Of a DNA stretch of 64,000 nucleotides, positions 33,957 to 64,000 are shown one piece after another. The position numbers and the translations under genes were made by a program. Position 1 is the first letter of the stretch, and every line of letters starts with the position of its first letter. The stretch comes from Kiritimatiellia bacterium (lineage in GTDB: Bacteria; Verrucomicrobiota; Kiritimatiellia; CAIVKH01): contig JAMLJG010000002.1 in NCBI GenBank assembly GCA_023953695.1, positions 1 to 64,000 on the forward strand, written 5' to 3'. Below the pieces are notes generated by a model. That model saw only the letters and a list, made by a program, of their open reading frames with translations, ran no database searches and was not told the origin of the DNA.

Positions 33957-34014
33957 CGAATAGCGTTTGACAACCGATTTTTGTGAAGTAATTTTCCGGC
34001 ATGGAGACACTCGG

Positions 34015-34383
34015 GTGAGCGAATCAGCTACAGAAAAAGGCGACAAACCGGAAAAGCAGCCGGTGGTTGTCGCATCAGATTTTTCCGCAGCGCTTGAACA
34101 GCCAGACACCTTTCAACTTTGCCCGCTCGGACTGCAACTCTACTCGGAGAAGGCTGTCGCCCCATTCAGCGTCATGAGCGTAGACATTGAAGTTCCCGAC
34201 AACGCGGGCCACCTCAAAACCATCGCTTGCACAGGCGCGGTCGTGCGATGCCAGCCCGAGAAGGATTCCGACCGGTTCCGCGTGTGGATTCAGTTCCTCG
34301 ACCTGCCGGAAGACACGCGCGAGAATCTCAAGTGCACGGCGCGAGCGGGCAATTTTCTCTGCTCTTACTGCCTCAATTACTGA
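34015..34383 (+). CDS. Small PilZ-like protein
   Basis: The 122-residue protein has a beta-rich core typical of PilZ-like domains (VMSVDIEVPD, TIACTGAVVRCQPE, FRVWIQFLDLPEDTRENLKC). I do not see the RxxxR cyclic di-GMP motif, so it may not bind the nucleotide. A GTG at 34015 is preferred as start because GGAG lies eight bases upstream; an ATG at 33967 would add 16 residues. It follows lptG by 58 bases. The final seven bases overlap the convergent radical SAM gene. Confidence 0.5.
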   Translation: MSESATEKGDKPEKQPVVVASDFSAALEQPDTFQLCPLGLQLYSEKAVAPFSVMSVDIEVPDNAGHLKTIACTGAVVRCQPEKDSDRFRVWIQFLDLPEDTRENLKCTARAGNFLCSYCLNY

Positions 34384-52918: not shown

Positions 52919-53683
52919 ATGAGCCGATATCCCATCTCGCGCATAGAGCCATCAGCGCTGTCGCCACTGGTCGCCTGCCCGCTGCGGAACTGGGGCGATA
53001 TCCCGCCCCCGCTCAAGCCGCAAGAGGCCCAAGTCTGGCTGATGACAGCGCGCTCCCTCGAACCGTATCGAAGCGAATTGGAGCGCTCGCTTTCAGACGA
53101 AGAACGAGCGCGATGCGAGCGTTTCGTGCGGCGCGAAGACCGCGAGCGCGCGCGGCTGTTTCGCGGCGCACTGCGCCGCATCCTCGCTGCCCATCTGGAA
53201 ACGGATCCCATCGAACTTCAGTTTGCAACGAGTGAAAATGGCAAGCCCGCACTGGCAAACGACGCGCTCGCGTTCAATCTCTCACACAGCGGAAACTGGC
53301 TGGCCGTCGCCTGTGCGCATGAAGGAGATATGGGCGTGGATATCGAGGTGCGCGGGCGCGATTTGAATCCGCTCGATGTGGCGAACCACTCATTCTGCAA
53401 GTCGGAGGCCGCTCGCCTCGCTGAGCTTCCGCTCCCCGACCAATTGCCGCTCTTCATGAAATGGTGGACAGCAAAGGAAGCCACGCTGAAGGCTTGGGGC
53501 GAAACGCTGTTCAGCGGTGTGGGAGCGTTGGATTTCAGCAGGTGGATCGCCGAACCTTCCATCGCGTTCGAAACGGCGGACAAGACCCGTTGGCATGCAT
53601 GGCGATTCGAACGTCGCGATGTATGGGGGACGATTGTGACGGATCACGCGATTCAGCGCGTCACGTTGCGATACGCGGAGTAG
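52919..53683 (+). CDS. 4'-phosphopantetheinyl transferase (Sfp type)
   Basis: The 254-residue enzyme transfers phosphopantetheine from coenzyme A to carrier proteins. The Sfp signatures are present: FNLSHSGNWLAVA, MGVDIEVRGRD with the Mg-binding Asp/Glu, and KWWTAKEATLKAWGE. Sfp-type enzymes usually serve peptide and polyketide synthases, which fits the synthetase 8 kb away whose carrier domain needs this modification. Its last 23 bases overlap the convergent PilZ/WecA/FlaA1-like gene. Confidence 0.92.
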   Translation: MSRYPISRIEPSALSPLVACPLRNWGDIPPPLKPQEAQVWLMTARSLEPYRSELERSLSDEERARCERFVRREDRERARLFRGALRRILAAHLETDPIELQFATSENGKPALANDALAFNLSHSGNWLAVACAHEGDMGVDIEVRGRDLNPLDVANHSFCKSEAARLAELPLPDQLPLFMKWWTAKEATLKAWGETLFSGVGALDFSRWIAEPSIAFETADKTRWHAWRFERRDVWGTIVTDHAIQRVTLRYAE

Positions 53684-56048
53684 CGGGCGCTACGGCCTCG
53701 GCGTTCACCACCCGCTCTTCGAAGTGCCACTCCGAGAGCAGCAGATTGTTCGCCGCGCAGAAAGTCACCAGTTGTGCAAACGCCTCATCGCGCAACTGCG
53801 CGGTGATCACAATTTCATCCACGCGATATTTCTTTACCAACTCCGGAATCTCCTCGCCCGTCCCCACCACCGCACAGCCTCCCACGCGACGAAAACGTAG
53901 ATTCGTGTCGTCATCCACAATCCCCACAACCATTCGATGCGAAGGCGCACCATACGAACTGGCCGCACGGTCGCGCAAATAGAGGAGGCAGCGCGCGCCA
54001 GAACCGTACAGCAATATCCGCTTCACTACGCCGCCACGGCGATAGAACTGGCGCTCACTCCACGTTATCAGCCCTTCGAGCAAACCTCGATAGAAAATGC
54101 GAATGCCGAGCACAAACACATTGGCCACGCCGACATACAAGACGAGAAGCACCAGCGAGTGGCGCCAATCAGCGGGGCGGACCAGTGTGCTAATTCCCAG
54201 GCTGATCACAGCGCTGAGCAGCAAGCTGAGAGTGAGATGCAAATAGTCGGCCGCGCGCGCCAGCGACCACACTCGGCTATACATTCGCGCAAAACAAAAC
54301 GTCAAAAAGGTCGGGGCGACCCAGATCGGAATGGAAGAAATCCACAGCTCCCACGTCTTTCCTGTCGGATGCACGAATTGCAACAGGACCTGCGCAATGC
54401 CCAGCGACGCAACCAGCACCACAACATCGCTAATGGGATAGAACAGGAAGGCTGCCACCCGTTGCTTTGGTCGAGAAAGGCCGCGGATAATGGCCCGCCC
54501 CGTATCCCACAATTCCACCTCGGCCAGATGTCGCGTCAAAATGTAGGCGCCCACCACAAACGCGAGCAAAAAGACGCCGAGCGCCTGATCGCGGAAGACG
54601 AGACTCACGAGGCCGGTCAACACCAGCAGCCCGTTCACCACGTAGAGGATCACGGCGACCTGATACTGACTCAAGCCGCGCCTCTTGAGGCGGTGATGCA
54701 GATGCTCCGCATCCGGTTGCATCAGCCCCTTCGATCGCGACACACCGGATTCCTCATTCGCAGACAGAGCGCGAACCGAACGCCGCCAGATCGCGAGAAT
54801 GGTGTCGAACACAGGAATGCCAACCGCGAGCAGCGGAACGCCGAGCGAGGCGAGAAAAGTGCCCTTGGACCCCGTTGCCACAGAGATGGAGGCCAGGGTG
54901 AAACCCAGAAACATGCTTCCGGTGTCGCCGAGAAAAATACTCGCCGGGTGAAAATTATAGCGCAAGAAGGCCAAACATGCCCCCGCGAGACCCACCATGA
55001 TCAAGGCGTCGGATGGCGCCCGCCGGATAAAAAAGGCCCCCATCAATCCCACCCCTGCGATCAACGCCAATCCCGTGGCCAATCCATCAAGCCCGTCAAT
55101 CAAGTTGAACGCATTGGTCAGGGCGATGAACCAAATGAGCGTGACAATGAAATCCATCGCCATGGGCAACTCAAATCCGAGGAGCCGCCCCATCCCGTGC
55201 CCCGAGGCAAACATCAAGCTCGCGGCCACCATCTGGCCAAACAGCTTGAGGAGTGGCTTCAACCCGCGTATGTCGTCAATCAGCCCGACGACAACAAGCA
55301 CTCCCGAAGCGATCATGAAGTGAAAATGCCACGTGTCGTTCAGCGCTCCCGCACTCCACTCCCACGGCACGTGGAACGCCACAAATAACGCGGCATAAAA
55401 TCCCAGGACAAGCGCCAGTCCCCCGCCTCGCGGGGTCGGCGTCTGGTGAGTTCGCCGCTCATCCGGAACATCCACCGCACCCACCTTCCTCGCGAGCGCG
55501 CGAACCAGCGGTGTCAGCAAAATGGTCACCAGATAGGCCGCCGCCCAAACGGCGAGATATTTAGTCAACGCGGGATAGAACCACGCGAATGGAAGCATCA
55601 GCAAAAGGGGCAACAGAGTGATGAGGAAAAGAAGCGGACCGGGCCGAAAATGCGTGGGAGAAGCCGAGCGGAGCGGCTCCGCAAAGGCCAGGCTCAGCAT
55701 CTTTTTTTGTGGATCTCGGAAGCGCACCGCGGCGACCGCCTGAATCGTTGGCGAAATGTGTTCCAGCCGAACAACCTCTTCGGGCGCCTCGAAGTTCACG
55801 CGCAAGCGAATCACGCTGTCAGGCACGTCGGGCGAGTGAATCAACATCCCACCCAACGAAAGGTCATGAGCGGTTGCGGTCACAACGCGCTCTTCTGCGC
55901 CCTCAACAAAACGAACGATCACCGGAATCGAACACGCGTGGCGCACATGTTGGCGACGCTCGGAATCGCCCGGCATCTCAAAGAAACCGAGCCGCGCAAG
56001 AACGTTCCGCCAGACAGAACTCGATTTGGACGTGCTAGTTACAGGCAT
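53661..56048 (-). CDS. Triple fusion: PilZ domain - WecA-like transferase - FlaA1-like region
   Basis: Three parts in one 795-residue protein. Residues about 28-130: a PilZ domain with an intact cyclic di-GMP motif (RRQHVR and DLSLGGM). Residues about 150-500: a polyprenyl-phosphate sugar-1-phosphate transferase of the WecA/TagO/MraY superfamily with RRTHQTPTPRGGG, LIDDIRGL, NAFNLIDGLDGLATG, GDTGSMFLGF and the HLHHRL histidines. Residues about 520-780: four membrane helices and the FlaA1/CapD-type nucleotide-binding fold (KRILLYGSGARCLLYL, GIVDDD), but without the catalytic dehydratase domain. It should start a lipid-linked glycan on undecaprenyl phosphate, perhaps gated by cyclic di-GMP. Confidence 0.88.
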   Translation of the reverse strand: MPVTSTSKSSSVWRNVLARLGFFEMPGDSERRQHVRHACSIPVIVRFVEGAEERVVTATAHDLSLGGMLIHSPDVPDSVIRLRVNFEAPEEVVRLEHISPTIQAVAAVRFRDPQKKMLSLAFAEPLRSASPTHFRPGPLLFLITLLPLLLMLPFAWFYPALTKYLAVWAAAYLVTILLTPLVRALARKVGAVDVPDERRTHQTPTPRGGGLALVLGFYAALFVAFHVPWEWSAGALNDTWHFHFMIASGVLVVVGLIDDIRGLKPLLKLFGQMVAASLMFASGHGMGRLLGFELPMAMDFIVTLIWFIALTNAFNLIDGLDGLATGLALIAGVGLMGAFFIRRAPSDALIMVGLAGACLAFLRYNFHPASIFLGDTGSMFLGFTLASISVATGSKGTFLASLGVPLLAVGIPVFDTILAIWRRSVRALSANEESGVSRSKGLMQPDAEHLHHRLKRRGLSQYQVAVILYVVNGLLVLTGLVSLVFRDQALGVFLLAFVVGAYILTRHLAEVELWDTGRAIIRGLSRPKQRVAAFLFYPISDVVVLVASLGIAQVLLQFVHPTGKTWELWISSIPIWVAPTFLTFCFARMYSRVWSLARAADYLHLTLSLLLSAVISLGISTLVRPADWRHSLVLLVLYVGVANVFVLGIRIFYRGLLEGLITWSERQFYRRGGVVKRILLYGSGARCLLYLRDRAASSYGAPSHRMVVGIVDDDTNLRFRRVGGCAVVGTGEEIPELVKKYRVDEIVITAQLRDEAFAQLVTFCAANNLLLSEWHFEERVVNAEAVAPATPRIAT

Positions 56049-56104: not shown

Positions 56105-57334
56105 TCAATCTGCGGAACAACGCAATTCAAGCCACTCGCACAAACGGTTCAGATTCAGCTCCCGACTGAACGCTTTCTCGGCAAACGCTCGGGCCGCCGC
56201 ACCGCGGCGCCGACGTTCTTCGGGATCGCGCGATGCCTCAATCGCTCGCAACAGTGCAGGAAGATCGTTCTCGGGCACCACCCACCCGCCGCCAGAATCT
56301 GCAATCCATTGCGCGATGCTATTCTCGGAACCTCCGACGAAAATAATGGGCTTCCCAACCGCGAATATCCCCTGCACTTTGCTCGGCACCATGCACCCCT
56401 GCCACTTAGCGTCAAGGCTGACGAGATGCACATCCGCGCTGCACAGGTGTTCGCGAAGCCGACCGGCTGGCGCATAGGGCAAGAGCAACACGTTCAAACG
56501 GGAGTCGCGCGCGAGAGCATCTTCGATCTCCCCGCGCCGCTTCCCACCGCCGGCAAACACCCAGCGCAGCGACGCATCGCCGTTCAACGCCTCCGCCGCA
56601 GCAAGAAACTCGCCAAATCGGTGCCCTCGCCCCATATTCCCCGAATACATCAGAACCACATCGCGCTCACCCCAACGCTGCTCGATCCGAAAAGGCGGAG
56701 GGGTTGCTTCCGTCCACGGGCGCAATTCGGGCTCACTCCACAGCGGCAGCGATTCGACGGCCCGACACACCTCCGGAAGATCGGCCACACGTCGGCGAAT
56801 GCGGCCCACCATATCCTCTCCCAGCGTGACGATCAGAGGGCTGCCACGCAACTCCCTCCGAGTCAACTTCGCCAACTGTCGAAATGGAAAACTCGATTCC
56901 GAAACCTTCCCATGCGCGGCGAGGACGTCCGGGTAGATGTCCATGATCCAATGCGCATGTGCAACGCCCCGCCGATGCGCGCCCCACCGCGCCAACAGCC
57001 CAACGTGTGGCGGAGTGGTCAGCGCGAGGACGATGTCGAATTGCAACGAGCGATTGAACAACTTCAGCGCCAGCGCACCATAAAATGACGCGTAGTCAAA
57101 AATCTTCCCCAGTCCGGACTTTCTCCCGAACCCGGTCGCTCGCACCCGCTGAACGCGAACGCCTTCAATCGTCTCTTCGGCCGAATAGACCGCGTCACCG
57201 TTGTACGCTCGACGCGAACACAACACGCAAACTTCATGCCCACGCAGCAGCAGTGCCTTTGCCAGATCGTGCAGATAGCGGCCCGTGGGCGCGGTATCCG
57301 GCAGATAGTACTGATTTATCAATAGAAACTTCAT
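56105..57334 (-). CDS. Family 4 glycosyltransferase (WbuB-like)
   Basis: The 409-residue GT-B enzyme begins MKFLLINQYYLPDTAPTGRYLHDLA, with the ASTGR-like loop, and has the second-half motifs VLMYSGNMGRGHRFGEFL, VHLVSLDAKWQGCMVPSKVQGI and a C-terminal nucleotide-sugar pocket. WbuB-type enzymes add the second sugar to lipid-linked O-antigen or capsule precursors, which fits its position next to the WecA-like initiator. The ATG at 57334 is chosen because the fold starts there; an extended frame to 57472 is not supported. Confidence 0.87.
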   Translation of the reverse strand: MKFLLINQYYLPDTAPTGRYLHDLAKALLLRGHEVCVLCSRRAYNGDAVYSAEETIEGVRVQRVRATGFGRKSGLGKIFDYASFYGALALKLFNRSLQFDIVLALTTPPHVGLLARWGAHRRGVAHAHWIMDIYPDVLAAHGKVSESSFPFRQLAKLTRRELRGSPLIVTLGEDMVGRIRRRVADLPEVCRAVESLPLWSEPELRPWTEATPPPFRIEQRWGERDVVLMYSGNMGRGHRFGEFLAAAEALNGDASLRWVFAGGGKRRGEIEDALARDSRLNVLLLPYAPAGRLREHLCSADVHLVSLDAKWQGCMVPSKVQGIFAVGKPIIFVGGSENSIAQWIADSGGGWVVPENDLPALLRAIEASRDPEERRRRGAAARAFAEKAFSRELNLNRLCEWLELRCSAD

Positions 57335-57564
57335 TCGTCCCAGTTCGCTGCGCCAGATTAACAGGGCCACACAACTCGACAAGCCTGTAAAACGCATGCG
57401 CACCTTCTCGCCCGCACAAACGCAATTTCTCAAATGTGAGATCAGACCCTGGCGCCAACCGCCTTTCGCCAAAGCAAACGATCAATCTATTGGCATTTCC
57501 GATGATTGTGCCGATGCGACGGAAACTGGCCTGCCTCCTGCTAACTCCATAAAGAGGAACAGCG

Positions 57565-60622: not shown

Positions 60623-61177
60623 TCACTCGCTCTTCGCGCGAGTACGGAGAACGCGCGCAGGCGTTCCACCAACCACCGTCCAAGGCGCGACGTCCCGAAA
60701 AACGCTTGATCGCGCGCCGACCACCGCGCCCTCGCCGACCGTCACACCGGGCCCGACAAATACATCAGCCGCAATCCACGCGCGCGCGCCGATACGAATG
60801 GGCTTGGCAATCAGGGGAAAGGTCTTCTGATCGGGATCGTGCGTCGCGGCGCACAAAAACGAATACTGACTGACAATCGCATGCGCGCCGATCTCGATTG
60901 GCGCAACGTCGTAACAATCCACGCCGTCGCCAATCACACTGTAGTCGCCCATCGTCAGATTCCAAGGCGCCCATATTTTCGCGGAGGCATAGACGCGCAC
61001 CCCGCGCCCCAGCCGGGCACCGAAAAGCCGCAGCCAGAGACCGCGCCAGGCGTGGAAAGGGCGCGGGGTCGGTCGAAAGAGAAGAACCCAGACGATGCCC
61101 CACAGCGCGCGAGCGGCGCGATTGGCGATACTCAACTCGCTCTTGAAAGTGGACAAATCAACGCCTTGCGAACTCAC
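60623..61177 (-). CDS. WcaF-like sugar O-acetyltransferase
   Basis: The 184-residue protein has the WcaF/colanic acid acetyltransferase layout: N-terminal SIANRAARALWGIVWVLLF, PFHAWRGLWLRLFGARLG, then beta-helix turns (IWAPWNLTMGDYSVIGDGVDCY, THDPDQKTF with the catalytic His, AWIAADVFVGPGVTVGEGAVVGARS). The GTG start at 61177 overlaps the stop of the peptide synthetase gene (GTGA) and follows GGGGAGGGGAG, so the two genes are coupled. It may acetylate the peptide product or a glycan. Confidence 0.87.
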   Translation of the reverse strand: MSSQGVDLSTFKSELSIANRAARALWGIVWVLLFRPTPRPFHAWRGLWLRLFGARLGRGVRVYASAKIWAPWNLTMGDYSVIGDGVDCYDVAPIEIGAHAIVSQYSFLCAATHDPDQKTFPLIAKPIRIGARAWIAADVFVGPGVTVGEGAVVGARSSVFRDVAPWTVVGGTPARVLRTRAKSE

Positions 61178-64000
61178 GACACTCCCCTCCCCACCGCCCT
61201 GCGAACAAGCGCATTCAATCGCTCCGCCAACACAAGCACGTGTGGGTCTTGCATCATATTCAAATGCGAACCGGGCACCTTATGCAAGAAGACCCGATCG
61301 GCAAGATTCAACCACCCGCACGACGGATCGCCATACAACTCGAAACGGCTCTCCTCCGGATAGAAGAAGACAATCGGACCTGCGTAATCCGAGCTGTGAT
61401 AGGACTGCAGCACGCGCGTCTCCAACACCCAGCGATTCAGGTCTCGTTTCTCCAATTTGTCGGGACTCTTGCGCGCCAAGGCGTCAATCAAACGAGCCTC
61501 ATTCCTCATCGCCAACTTCGCGGCGATGTGCCGCTTCCAATCGCGCGGCTTCGCTCGCAGCGCGCCGTGCAGTCGCATCCGCAAGTATTCCGAGGATTCT
61601 GTTTTCGGGCTAAACGGGCGAGCGTCAATCAGGCCCAACAGCCCGATGGATTCCCCTGCAGCGGTAAGCTGACGCGCCATCTCCATCGCCAGCAATCCGC
61701 CGAAACAATATCCGGCGAGATAGTACGGCCCGTGCGGCTGCACCGCGCGCAAATCGCGAACAAACCAAGCGGCCAGGTCCTCCATCGAACGCAATCCGCG
61801 ATCATTCTCATACATCGTCAGGCACTGCAGACCCACGACGGGAATCCTGTCATCGAGGTGCGTCAGCAGATTCGCGTAGATCAGTAAATCGCCAAAATCG
61901 GATGGCAACAGACACAACAGCGGATGGCCCGCCTGCCCGTCGCGCAGCCGAACCAACGCATCTCCCTGGCTCGCGATTACCGGCGCAGCCACCTCGACGT
62001 TGCGCGGTTTCAGCGCAGCCGCCAAGCGCTCCACTGTAGAGTTGCGGAACAATTCAGCCACCTCGAGGTCAAAGCCCGCATCGCTCAACCGGTTGATCAG
62101 CTTCAGCGCGGCGAGCGAATGGCCACCGAGCGCAAAGAAATCATCCGTTCGTCCCACACGGGATACACCGAGAATCTGCTTCCAGATATCCGCGATCAGC
62201 GCCTCGCGAGCGGACGTCGAGTTTCCCGACAACGCGGGTGAAACCCTCGGCGTCTCAGGCTGCTCCAGCGGCAATGCGGCCAGAGCGCGCCGATCCACCT
62301 TGCCGCTCGCGTTGAGCGGGAGATTCTGCTGCACCACGAATTGCGACGGAATCATGAACTCGGGCATGTGCAGGCGCAAATGGGCGCGCACCGCTTCACT
62401 ATCGGGACGCTGCCCTTGCGCCGCGGGCGCAAGATAGGCAACAAGTTGCTTCTCTTCATTGGGCGCTGTCCGCACTATGACGGCGCTGTTTTGCAAACCC
62501 GGATATCCAGCGAGAACGGCTTCGATCTCGCCCGGCTCAATCCGAAATCCGCGAATCTTGACCTGGTCGTCGCGGCGTCCCAGAAACTCCAAGCGGCCAT
62601 CGGCACGCCATCGGGCGAGGTCTCCCGTTCGATATAGCCGATCGCCGGGCGTTCCACTCAAGGGATTCGGAATAAACGCCTCTTGGGTCAACTCGGGGCG
62701 ATTCAAATATCCGCGCGCCAAGCCATCGCCTCCGATGAACAGCTCTCCGGCTACACCGATGGGCTGCGGTTGCAATCGTGTATCGAGGACGTACACCTGC
62801 GTGTTTGCAATCGGATGGCCGAGCGGCGGCGGATCCGAAATCGTCGAAGCGCTCGTCATTGCTTCCGTCGTCGCAAAAGTCGTGCTCTCCGTCGGCCCAT
62901 ATCCATTGATCACCGTCAGATCCGGCCGCTGCGCCAGCAGCCGCGCGATCCGGCGGCCGGACGGCGCCTCACCACCGGTCAGCAACTGCTTCACGGGCGC
63001 GAGGCACATTGGGTTCTCGTCCACCACCACATGGAAAAGTCCAGCGGTGAGCCACAACACAGAAATATTCTCGCTGGCAAGCGTGCGAGCCAACAGCTCA
63101 ATGGAAAACGGGCCCGGCGCCAAAATGGCGAGTCGCGCTCCATTGAGCAACGGCGCCCATAATTCGAACGTCGAAGCGTCAAACGCGAGGGGCGAAAGAT
63201 GCAGGAATCGCTCCTCCGCTCCCAGCGAGGCATACGTCACACCTCGCACCAATCGAACAACGCTCTTGTGCTCAATCAACACACCCTTCGGACGACCCGT
63301 GGACCCGGAGGTGAACAAAATATAGGCAAGTTGATTGGGCGAATGAGCAACGCTGATTTCGGCAGCGGTCAACGCACTGTCCGGCAGCGCTTGCCAACTC
63401 GCCGCAGGATCATCCAACACAACGACCTGCACGCCCGCGCCCGCGAAAAGGTGGGCGTGCGGTTGCGCGACCACGACAACACGGGTCTCGGCATCGCCTA
63501 TTTGCAGCATCAACCGCTCCGTCGGGTGCGTCGGGTCGAGCGGCATATAGGCGCCGCCCGCCTTCAGAATGGCTAGCAGCGCCACCACCATCTCGATGGA
63601 TCGGTCGGCGCACAGTCCAACCGCCTGATTCGGACCCACGCCATGCCGCAAGAGCGCTCGCGCAAGGCGGTTCGCTCTCGCGTTCAACTCGCCATACGTC
63701 AACGTTTCGCCAGCAAAGGAAAGCGCGATGCGGTCGGGCGCGACTTCAACCTGCTCCTCAAACAACTCGTGAATGCACGTTGAGGGATACGAAGTCCGCG
63801 TGTTATTCCAATCGAACAACACGGTGCGTCGTTCGTCGTCGGTCAGCAGTGGAATGGCGCCAAGCGGCGTGTGCGGCTCATCCGTCGCAGTGCGCACGAT
63901 TTGCCGGAAGTGGCCCATCCAGCGAGCGATGGTGGCGGAGTCGAACAAATCGGTGTTGTAGTTGCACTCGATCCGCAGGCGATCGGGGTGCGCAACCACG
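61174..64000 (-). CDS. Nonribosomal peptide synthetase, terminal module (N-terminus cut by window edge)
   Basis: The 941 visible residues hold the end of a condensation domain (to about 55), an adenylation domain (about 75-560: YILFTSGSTGRPKG, FDASTFELW, NGYGPTESTTF, YRTGDLARW), a carrier domain (FFALGGHSLAALKL, Ser for phosphopantetheine) and a thioesterase (about 690-941). Aligned to GrsA by eye, the specificity residues read D-A-F-W-L-G-G-T-F plus Lys, close to the classic valine code. The thioesterase nucleophile motif is GYCFGG, so the active residue is Cys (codon 61705-61707) and not Ser. This is the product-releasing end of an assembly line that continues beyond the window. Confidence 0.95.
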   Translation of the reverse strand, partial: VVAHPDRLRIECNYNTDLFDSATIARWMGHFRQIVRTATDEPHTPLGAIPLLTDDERRTVLFDWNNTRTSYPSTCIHELFEEQVEVAPDRIALSFAGETLTYGELNARANRLARALLRHGVGPNQAVGLCADRSIEMVVALLAILKAGGAYMPLDPTHPTERLMLQIGDAETRVVVVAQPHAHLFAGAGVQVVVLDDPAASWQALPDSALTAAEISVAHSPNQLAYILFTSGSTGRPKGVLIEHKSVVRLVRGVTYASLGAEERFLHLSPLAFDASTFELWAPLLNGARLAILAPGPFSIELLARTLASENISVLWLTAGLFHVVVDENPMCLAPVKQLLTGGEAPSGRRIARLLAQRPDLTVINGYGPTESTTFATTEAMTSASTISDPPPLGHPIANTQVYVLDTRLQPQPIGVAGELFIGGDGLARGYLNRPELTQEAFIPNPLSGTPGDRLYRTGDLARWRADGRLEFLGRRDDQVKIRGFRIEPGEIEAVLAGYPGLQNSAVIVRTAPNEEKQLVAYLAPAAQGQRPDSEAVRAHLRLHMPEFMIPSQFVVQQNLPLNASGKVDRRALAALPLEQPETPRVSPALSGNSTSAREALIADIWKQILGVSRVGRTDDFFALGGHSLAALKLINRLSDAGFDLEVAELFRNSTVERLAAALKPRNVEVAAPVIASQGDALVRLRDGQAGHPLLCLLPSDFGDLLIYANLLTHLDDRIPVVGLQCLTMYENDRGLRSMEDLAAWFVRDLRAVQPHGPYYLAGYCFGGLLAMEMARQLTAAGESIGLLGLIDARPFSPKTESSEYLRMRLHGALRAKPRDWKRHIAAKLAMRNEARLIDALARKSPDKLEKRDLNRWVLETRVLQSYHSSDYAGPIVFFYPEESRFELYGDPSCGWLNLADRVFLHKVPGSHLNMMQDPHVLVLAERLNALVRRAVGRGVS

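Follow-up and report, generated by a model that had tools for sequence, protein, structure and literature searches.

A PilZ domain joined to a WecA-like polytopic phosphoglycosyl transferase with a monotopic-type accessory module in a genus of Kiritimatiellia

Background

Control by cyclic di-GMP (c-di-GMP) is well known for synthase-dependent polysaccharide pathways, where it is described as stimulation; the post-translational switching of Wzx/Wzy pathways is incompletely understood (PMC12802240). Among the closest described systems, BcsA and the Alg44 complex have a PilZ domain attached to a membrane machine that makes a glycan, and in BcsA this domain is activating (PMC12220298). NfrB of E. 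coli likewise combines a receptor domain for c-di-GMP with a membrane glycosyltransferase in one protein, in this case an MshEN-like domain on a BcsA-like enzyme that is independent of WecA (PMC8669472). A signal input on the initiating phosphoglycosyl transferase (PGT) of a Wzx/Wzy pathway is known from Myxococcus, where a separate response regulator, EpsW, acts post-translationally on the monotopic PGT EpsZ; c-di-GMP is not involved, and the pair illustrates that a signalling protein can switch an initiating PGT via its dimer state (PMC12802240).

Large monotopic PGTs (WbaP, WcaJ, EpsZ; TIGR03025) have an N-terminal accessory module, made up of a bundle of four transmembrane helices (4TM) and a DUF (PF13727), which is followed by the PF02397 catalytic domain. 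In WbaP the DUF dimerises and responds to UMP, UDP and UTP, and the full-length enzyme has an IC50 for UMP of 4.1 uM (PMC10942596). The same paper describes the N-terminal modules of the large PGTs and of FlaA1/CapD as resembling each other, and its 2024 summary table enters the polytopic PGTs as "PGT only".

Here we analyse a gene from a stretch of 64,000 nucleotides (the window) of the metagenome-assembled genome of an uncultured Kiritimatiellia bacterium. Its product is a fusion of known modules in an order for which we found no description in open-licence papers, nor did we find in this literature any described fusion of a PilZ domain to a polytopic PGT. In BcsA and Alg44 the PilZ domain serves synthase-dependent polymerases, whereas the window protein is probably the initiating PGT of a lipid-carrier pathway.

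Domain architecture

The open reading frame has an ATG start and encodes 795 residues. An earlier note on the same DNA, with the same coordinates, had proposed that PilZ, WecA-like and FlaA1-like parts are fused in it. The features are as follows.

53661..56048, minus strand: whole reading frame, in the order PilZ, extra helix TM0, polytopic PGT core, 4TM bundle and PF13727 DUF (Pfam, NCBIfam, AlphaFold2)
55665..55961, minus strand: PilZ domain, residues 30-128 (PF07238; beta barrel with pLDDT >90 in most blocks; Foldseek match to the Alg44 PilZ domain with c-di-GMP)
55941..55955, minus strand: first half of the c-di-GMP motif, RxxxR, with R32 and R36 (without variation among 11 related PilZ domains and the three fusion members)
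55848..55865, minus strand: second half of the c-di-GMP motif, DxSxxG, with D62, S64 and G67 (kept in all three fusion members)
55578..55637, minus strand: extra transmembrane helix TM0 between PilZ and core, residues 138-157 (AlphaFold2 helix, hydrophobic peak)
54597..55574, minus strand: polytopic PGT core of the WecA/MraY type, residues 159-484 (PF00953, TIGR02380, alignment with E. coli WecA, MraY structures)
54039..54464, minus strand: four-helix membrane bundle as in large monotopic PGTs, residues 529-670 (AlphaFold2 helices, TIGR03025 match)
53706..54032, minus strand: Rossmann-like DUF PF13727 (CoA_binding_3), residues 673-781 (Pfam; Foldseek match 3nkl; motifs conserved in homologues)

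The domain search confirmed the fusion. Three Pfam families matched, each over its curated cut-off: PF07238 (PilZ) at residues 30-128 (E = 1.2e-6; 29.2 bits, where the cut-off is 22.5), PF00953 (Glycos_transf_4) at residues 244-391 (E = 9e-37) and PF13727 (CoA_binding_3) at residues 597-756 (E = 5.8e-10). The PilZ domain does keep both halves of its c-di-GMP motif, as had been claimed, since R32xxxR36 and D62xS64xxG67 are complete.

It had also been claimed that the transferase keeps all signatures of its superfamily, and the alignment with E. coli WecA bears this out. At 30% identity, the residues D258 and D259, D318, D321, D375 and H449/H451/H452 are aligned, that is, the DD pair, both aspartates of NAFNxxDGxDGL, the aspartate of GDxGS and the HxHH motif are retained. 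The two proteins share the catalytic core, but WecA is without the PilZ domain, TM0, the 4TM bundle and the DUF, all four of which are found in the window protein. Against the WecA equivalog model TIGR02380 it scores 110.3 bits, where the cut-off is 326, and it is WecA-like rather than filed as WecA.

The C-terminal end had been read as FlaA1/CapD-like, with the nucleotide-binding fold kept and the dehydratase domain lacking. The Rossmann-like fold and the missing dehydratase both stand: neither PF02719 (Polysacc_synt_2 dehydratase) nor PF02397 (monotopic transferase) was found by Pfam in the 795 residues. On the other hand, we rejected the label of a FlaA1/CapD remnant specifically. The FlaA1/CapD/PglF dehydratases have only the PF13727 module in common with the window protein, whereas residues 540-767 match positions 2-214 of the NCBIfam model TIGR03025 (EPS_sugtrans subfamily), the stretch before the catalytic domain of that family (E = 3.3e-15 with the C-terminal part alone). 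This part is thus better described as the 4TM bundle and DUF of the large monotopic PGTs. The protein is nevertheless not itself a large monotopic PGT: it has the 4TM bundle and PF13727 and lacks PF02397, and its module stands behind an unrelated polytopic core. When the DUF half was compared by BLASTP with the large PGT of the window genome itself, no significant match resulted, so the link to the accessory module rests on profiles and structure. Within the DUF, the motifs YGxG and VGxxDDD are conserved in homologues, and G682 and G709 are found in at least 90% of the aligned rows.

Predicted structure and topology

An AlphaFold2 model was built on an alignment of 49 sequences. It is confident (mean pLDDT 84.7, pTM 0.75) and consists of a beta barrel (37-122), a helix (138-157), the polytopic core (159-484) with a further helix (489-522), a weak linker (515-527), a four-helix bundle (529-559, 565-586, 599-623 and 625-670) and a Rossmann-like domain (675-774). 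In Foldseek searches of the PDB the core matched MraY chains with a TM-score of about 0.7 on the target, the barrel matched c-di-GMP-bound PilZ domains (Alg44, 4rt0, and 4xrn) and the C-terminal domain matched the PF13727-like domain 3nkl.

These matches bear on the question of whether the PilZ domain is a sensor at all. Some PilZ domains do not bind c-di-GMP, and the one described here could be a docking or stability domain that has lost its sensing function; its low overall conservation in the genus (39-57% identity) would agree with such a loss. Yet the RxxxR and DxSxxG motifs are retained in all members and the closest folds are PilZ structures with c-di-GMP bound, and we regard a non-sensing domain as quite unlikely.

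The MraY/WecA core has its N-terminus outside and its active site facing the cytoplasm. With one helix added ahead of such a core, the PilZ domain would be placed in the cytoplasm, and by the same helix parity, counting 11 core helices and four bundle helices, the DUF would also be cytoplasmic. TM0 has a hydrophobic peak of 2.4-2.6 in all three fusion members (Kyte-Doolittle scale, 19 residues), while nearly all of the PilZ-less homologues with polytopic PGT and DUF that were examined begin at TM1 of the core. The positive-inside count (25 K/R among the 139 residues inside and 7 among the 46 outside) does not discriminate, and the topology rests on helix parity.

Gene neighbourhood and genome context

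Two neighbours of the gene are conserved in contig L003 of a relative from the same genus.

56105..57397, minus strand: WcaI-family GT4 glycosyltransferase, directly upstream of the PGT gene with a gap of 56 bp; same neighbour in L003
57574..60618, plus strand: divergently oriented gene for a DUF4838 protein; also a neighbour in L003

The GT4 enzyme likely adds a following sugar. On the other side, the PGT gene shares its last 23 bp, tail-to-tail, with the gene for a phosphopantetheinyl transferase (52919-53683). The PGT-GT4 pair is separated from an exopolysaccharide (EPS) cluster by a hexapeptide transferase gene and a gene for a nonribosomal peptide synthetase (NRPS) of 3,984 aa (window 60623-63999, L064:4624-17129). 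Past the NRPS, the cluster contains GT2 and GT4 enzymes, a Wzc-type kinase, two Wzy_C (polymerase/ligase) proteins, an OPX/EpsE-like export protein and an EpsL-like outer-membrane protein. Neither Pfam nor NCBIfam recognised a Wzx flippase, and its position is taken by a protein of 527 aa (L065:7124-8707).

Because of the adjoining NRPS and hexapeptide acyltransferase genes, the enzyme might start another glycan, either O-antigen-like or tied to the NRPS locus, instead of a secreted EPS. In the related genome G069 (L072/L003), however, the order is Wzc, Wzx-position protein, GT2, DUF4838, GT4, PilZ-PGT, phosphopantetheinyl transferase and Sua5, so that the block of PGT, GT4 and DUF4838 abuts the EPS genes directly. 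The hexapeptide transferase gene is missing at this place in G069; the NRPS is likewise absent there and is therefore a later neighbour. A role in another glycan thus seems unlikely to us.

In the window genome no PF00953 protein was detected besides the PilZ-PGT; two other PGTs are of the large monotopic type. MurG and MurC were found (L088 and L092, G000:C1 at about 259-262 kb), and neither MraY nor further Mur ligases were detected in this 94%-complete genome, which may reflect either missing contigs or a reduced peptidoglycan synthesis.

There are three GGDEF matches in the window genome, and GGDEF proteins were also found in all seven other genomes of the family that were tested. The main GGDEF protein has a domain of the GGDEM type (not GGDEF) joined to HD-GYP. 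Another, in L041 (G000:C36), has 409 aa and two GGDEF domains with degenerate signatures (the second reads GEDQF); tandem kin of it occur in several family members. Since the main protein is GGDEM and the second is degenerate, synthesis of c-di-GMP in this genome is likely but not certain. The genome has two further PilZ matches. In the window, a small reading frame (33967-34383, plus strand), which follows an LptF/G-like permease, gave a weak PilZ match (profile residues 34-97, 23 bits) in which the RxxxR half of the motif is not visible.

Proposed mechanism

Taken together, the intact domains, motifs and catalytic residues, the EPS context, the GGDEF proteins and the topology favour an initiating PGT that is switched by c-di-GMP. 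From the sequence, control of the first membrane step by c-di-GMP would be the most economical reading, as it fits the EPS cluster, the GGDEF proteins and the topology. We consider it probable that the protein serves a Wzx/Wzy-type EPS pathway as its initiating PGT, with c-di-GMP activation through PilZ and possibly restraint by UMP at the C-terminus.

In this model, the WecA-like core would move a sugar-1-phosphate from a UDP-sugar to undecaprenyl phosphate with release of UMP (by family, Und-P + UDP-sugar -> Und-PP-sugar + UMP), the sugar probably being GlcNAc- or another HexNAc-1-phosphate. The N-terminal PilZ domain would bind c-di-GMP and, through TM0 packed against TM1 of the core, most likely shift the core to its active state, by analogy to BcsA. 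At the C-terminus, the 4TM bundle together with the DUF would probably keep the protein dimeric and act as a sensor of uridine nucleotides, and a build-up of UMP may restrain the enzyme, as has been proposed for WbaP. The pathway would then start only at high c-di-GMP and low UMP. The more specific proposal, that a polytopic PGT integrates two inputs on one chain (c-di-GMP by PilZ via the added helix, UMP by a module borrowed from monotopic PGTs), we put forward tentatively, at somewhat less than an even chance.

The sign of the regulation cannot be read from sequence, and PilZ might bind c-di-GMP and inhibit the transferase. High c-di-GMP would then save undecaprenyl phosphate or divert it to another glycan, for which the genome's two monotopic PGTs might be competitors of the window protein. 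Against this, the control of synthase-dependent pathways is described as a stimulation (PMC12802240) and the PilZ domain of BcsA activates (PMC12220298); inhibition is in our view decidedly unlikely.

With a c-di-GMP receptor and an initiating PGT on one chain, gating of the first step is testable with a single purified protein. If the two-input proposal is true, c-di-GMP would here gate the committing step of a glycan pathway on a lipid carrier directly, for the first time as far as the open-licence literature goes.

Distribution and origin of the PilZ addition

The domain order was surveyed in 240 genomes of the Kiritimatiellae class and in a phylum scan of 388 genomes (Verrucomicrobiota). 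In the class, 152 of the 240 genomes gave a match with an E-value no higher than 1e-10. The PilZ part was aligned in both scans only in G000, G050 and G069, all from the window genus, and a scan of the genome contigs found the same three-part order only in the two genus relatives (L002, about 61% identity; L003, about 65%). By contrast, the fusion of polytopic PGT, 4TM bundle and DUF is common in the phylum and also found in other classes of Verrucomicrobiota; the proteins in L006, L007 and L021, for example, agree with the window protein in core and C-terminal module (identity of about 38-44% across the part in common), but have no PilZ domain, and nearly all proteins of this type are without TM0. 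The PilZ addition is rare, in three genomes of one genus, but two of the three parts are ordinary in this order. In our sample of Verrucomicrobiota, the PilZ-PGT order is restricted to one genus, and its parts look functional.

An assembly chimera or a frameshift artefact that joined three genes could be suspected, as the L003 copy (L003:9998-12386, G069) is itself frameshifted near residue 566, which is either an assembly error or a pseudogene; the frame is intact in the other two genomes. This explanation is effectively refuted, and ruled out as an assembly artefact, by the order common to three separate assemblies; moreover, conserved residues run through the junction of PilZ and core, and the fusion of core and DUF recurs across the phylum.

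In a tree of the core, the two PilZ members whose frames are intact group together in a single clade (100/100) with sisters that lack PilZ; the third, frameshifted member fell below the length filter and is omitted. The most likely course is therefore a single addition of PilZ to a two-part enzyme that was already there. Long upstream open frames of the homologues contained no PilZ domain in a Pfam check, and a tblastn search of plasmids gave, among the matches listed, the transferase only, starting after residue 156. In the most distant pair of the genus, the PilZ domain has 39% identity, against 73% for the core. The dN of the PilZ region is 0.32-0.56 against a dS of at least 1.6, and the domain would seem to be under purifying selection in the genus, with dS saturated.

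Related PilZ domains stand alone in other Kiritimatiellae (L080, L084). In L075, L076, L078 and L079, and by alignment also in L077, a PilZ domain lies ahead of a family-2 glycosyltransferase (559-685 aa in L075-L079), which is the other PilZ-glycosyltransferase design of the Kiritimatiellae.

In the 240 class genomes, about 110 of the matches listed cover the transferase together with the C-terminal module. While polytopic PGTs have been entered as "PGT only", these carry the accessory module of the unrelated monotopic PGTs, which suggests that this module is a regulator that can be transferred among PGTs generally.

A further member of the window's family, G079, has a polytopic PGT-DUF protein (L043:4766-7018, minus strand) with a C-terminal HisKA domain (Pfam, E = 1.1e-11) instead of PilZ. 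The H-box is intact and there is no ATPase domain; the gene lies within an EPS cluster and is followed downstream by a gene for a hybrid kinase. This independent signalling fusion on the same core supports the idea that the inputs are swappable.
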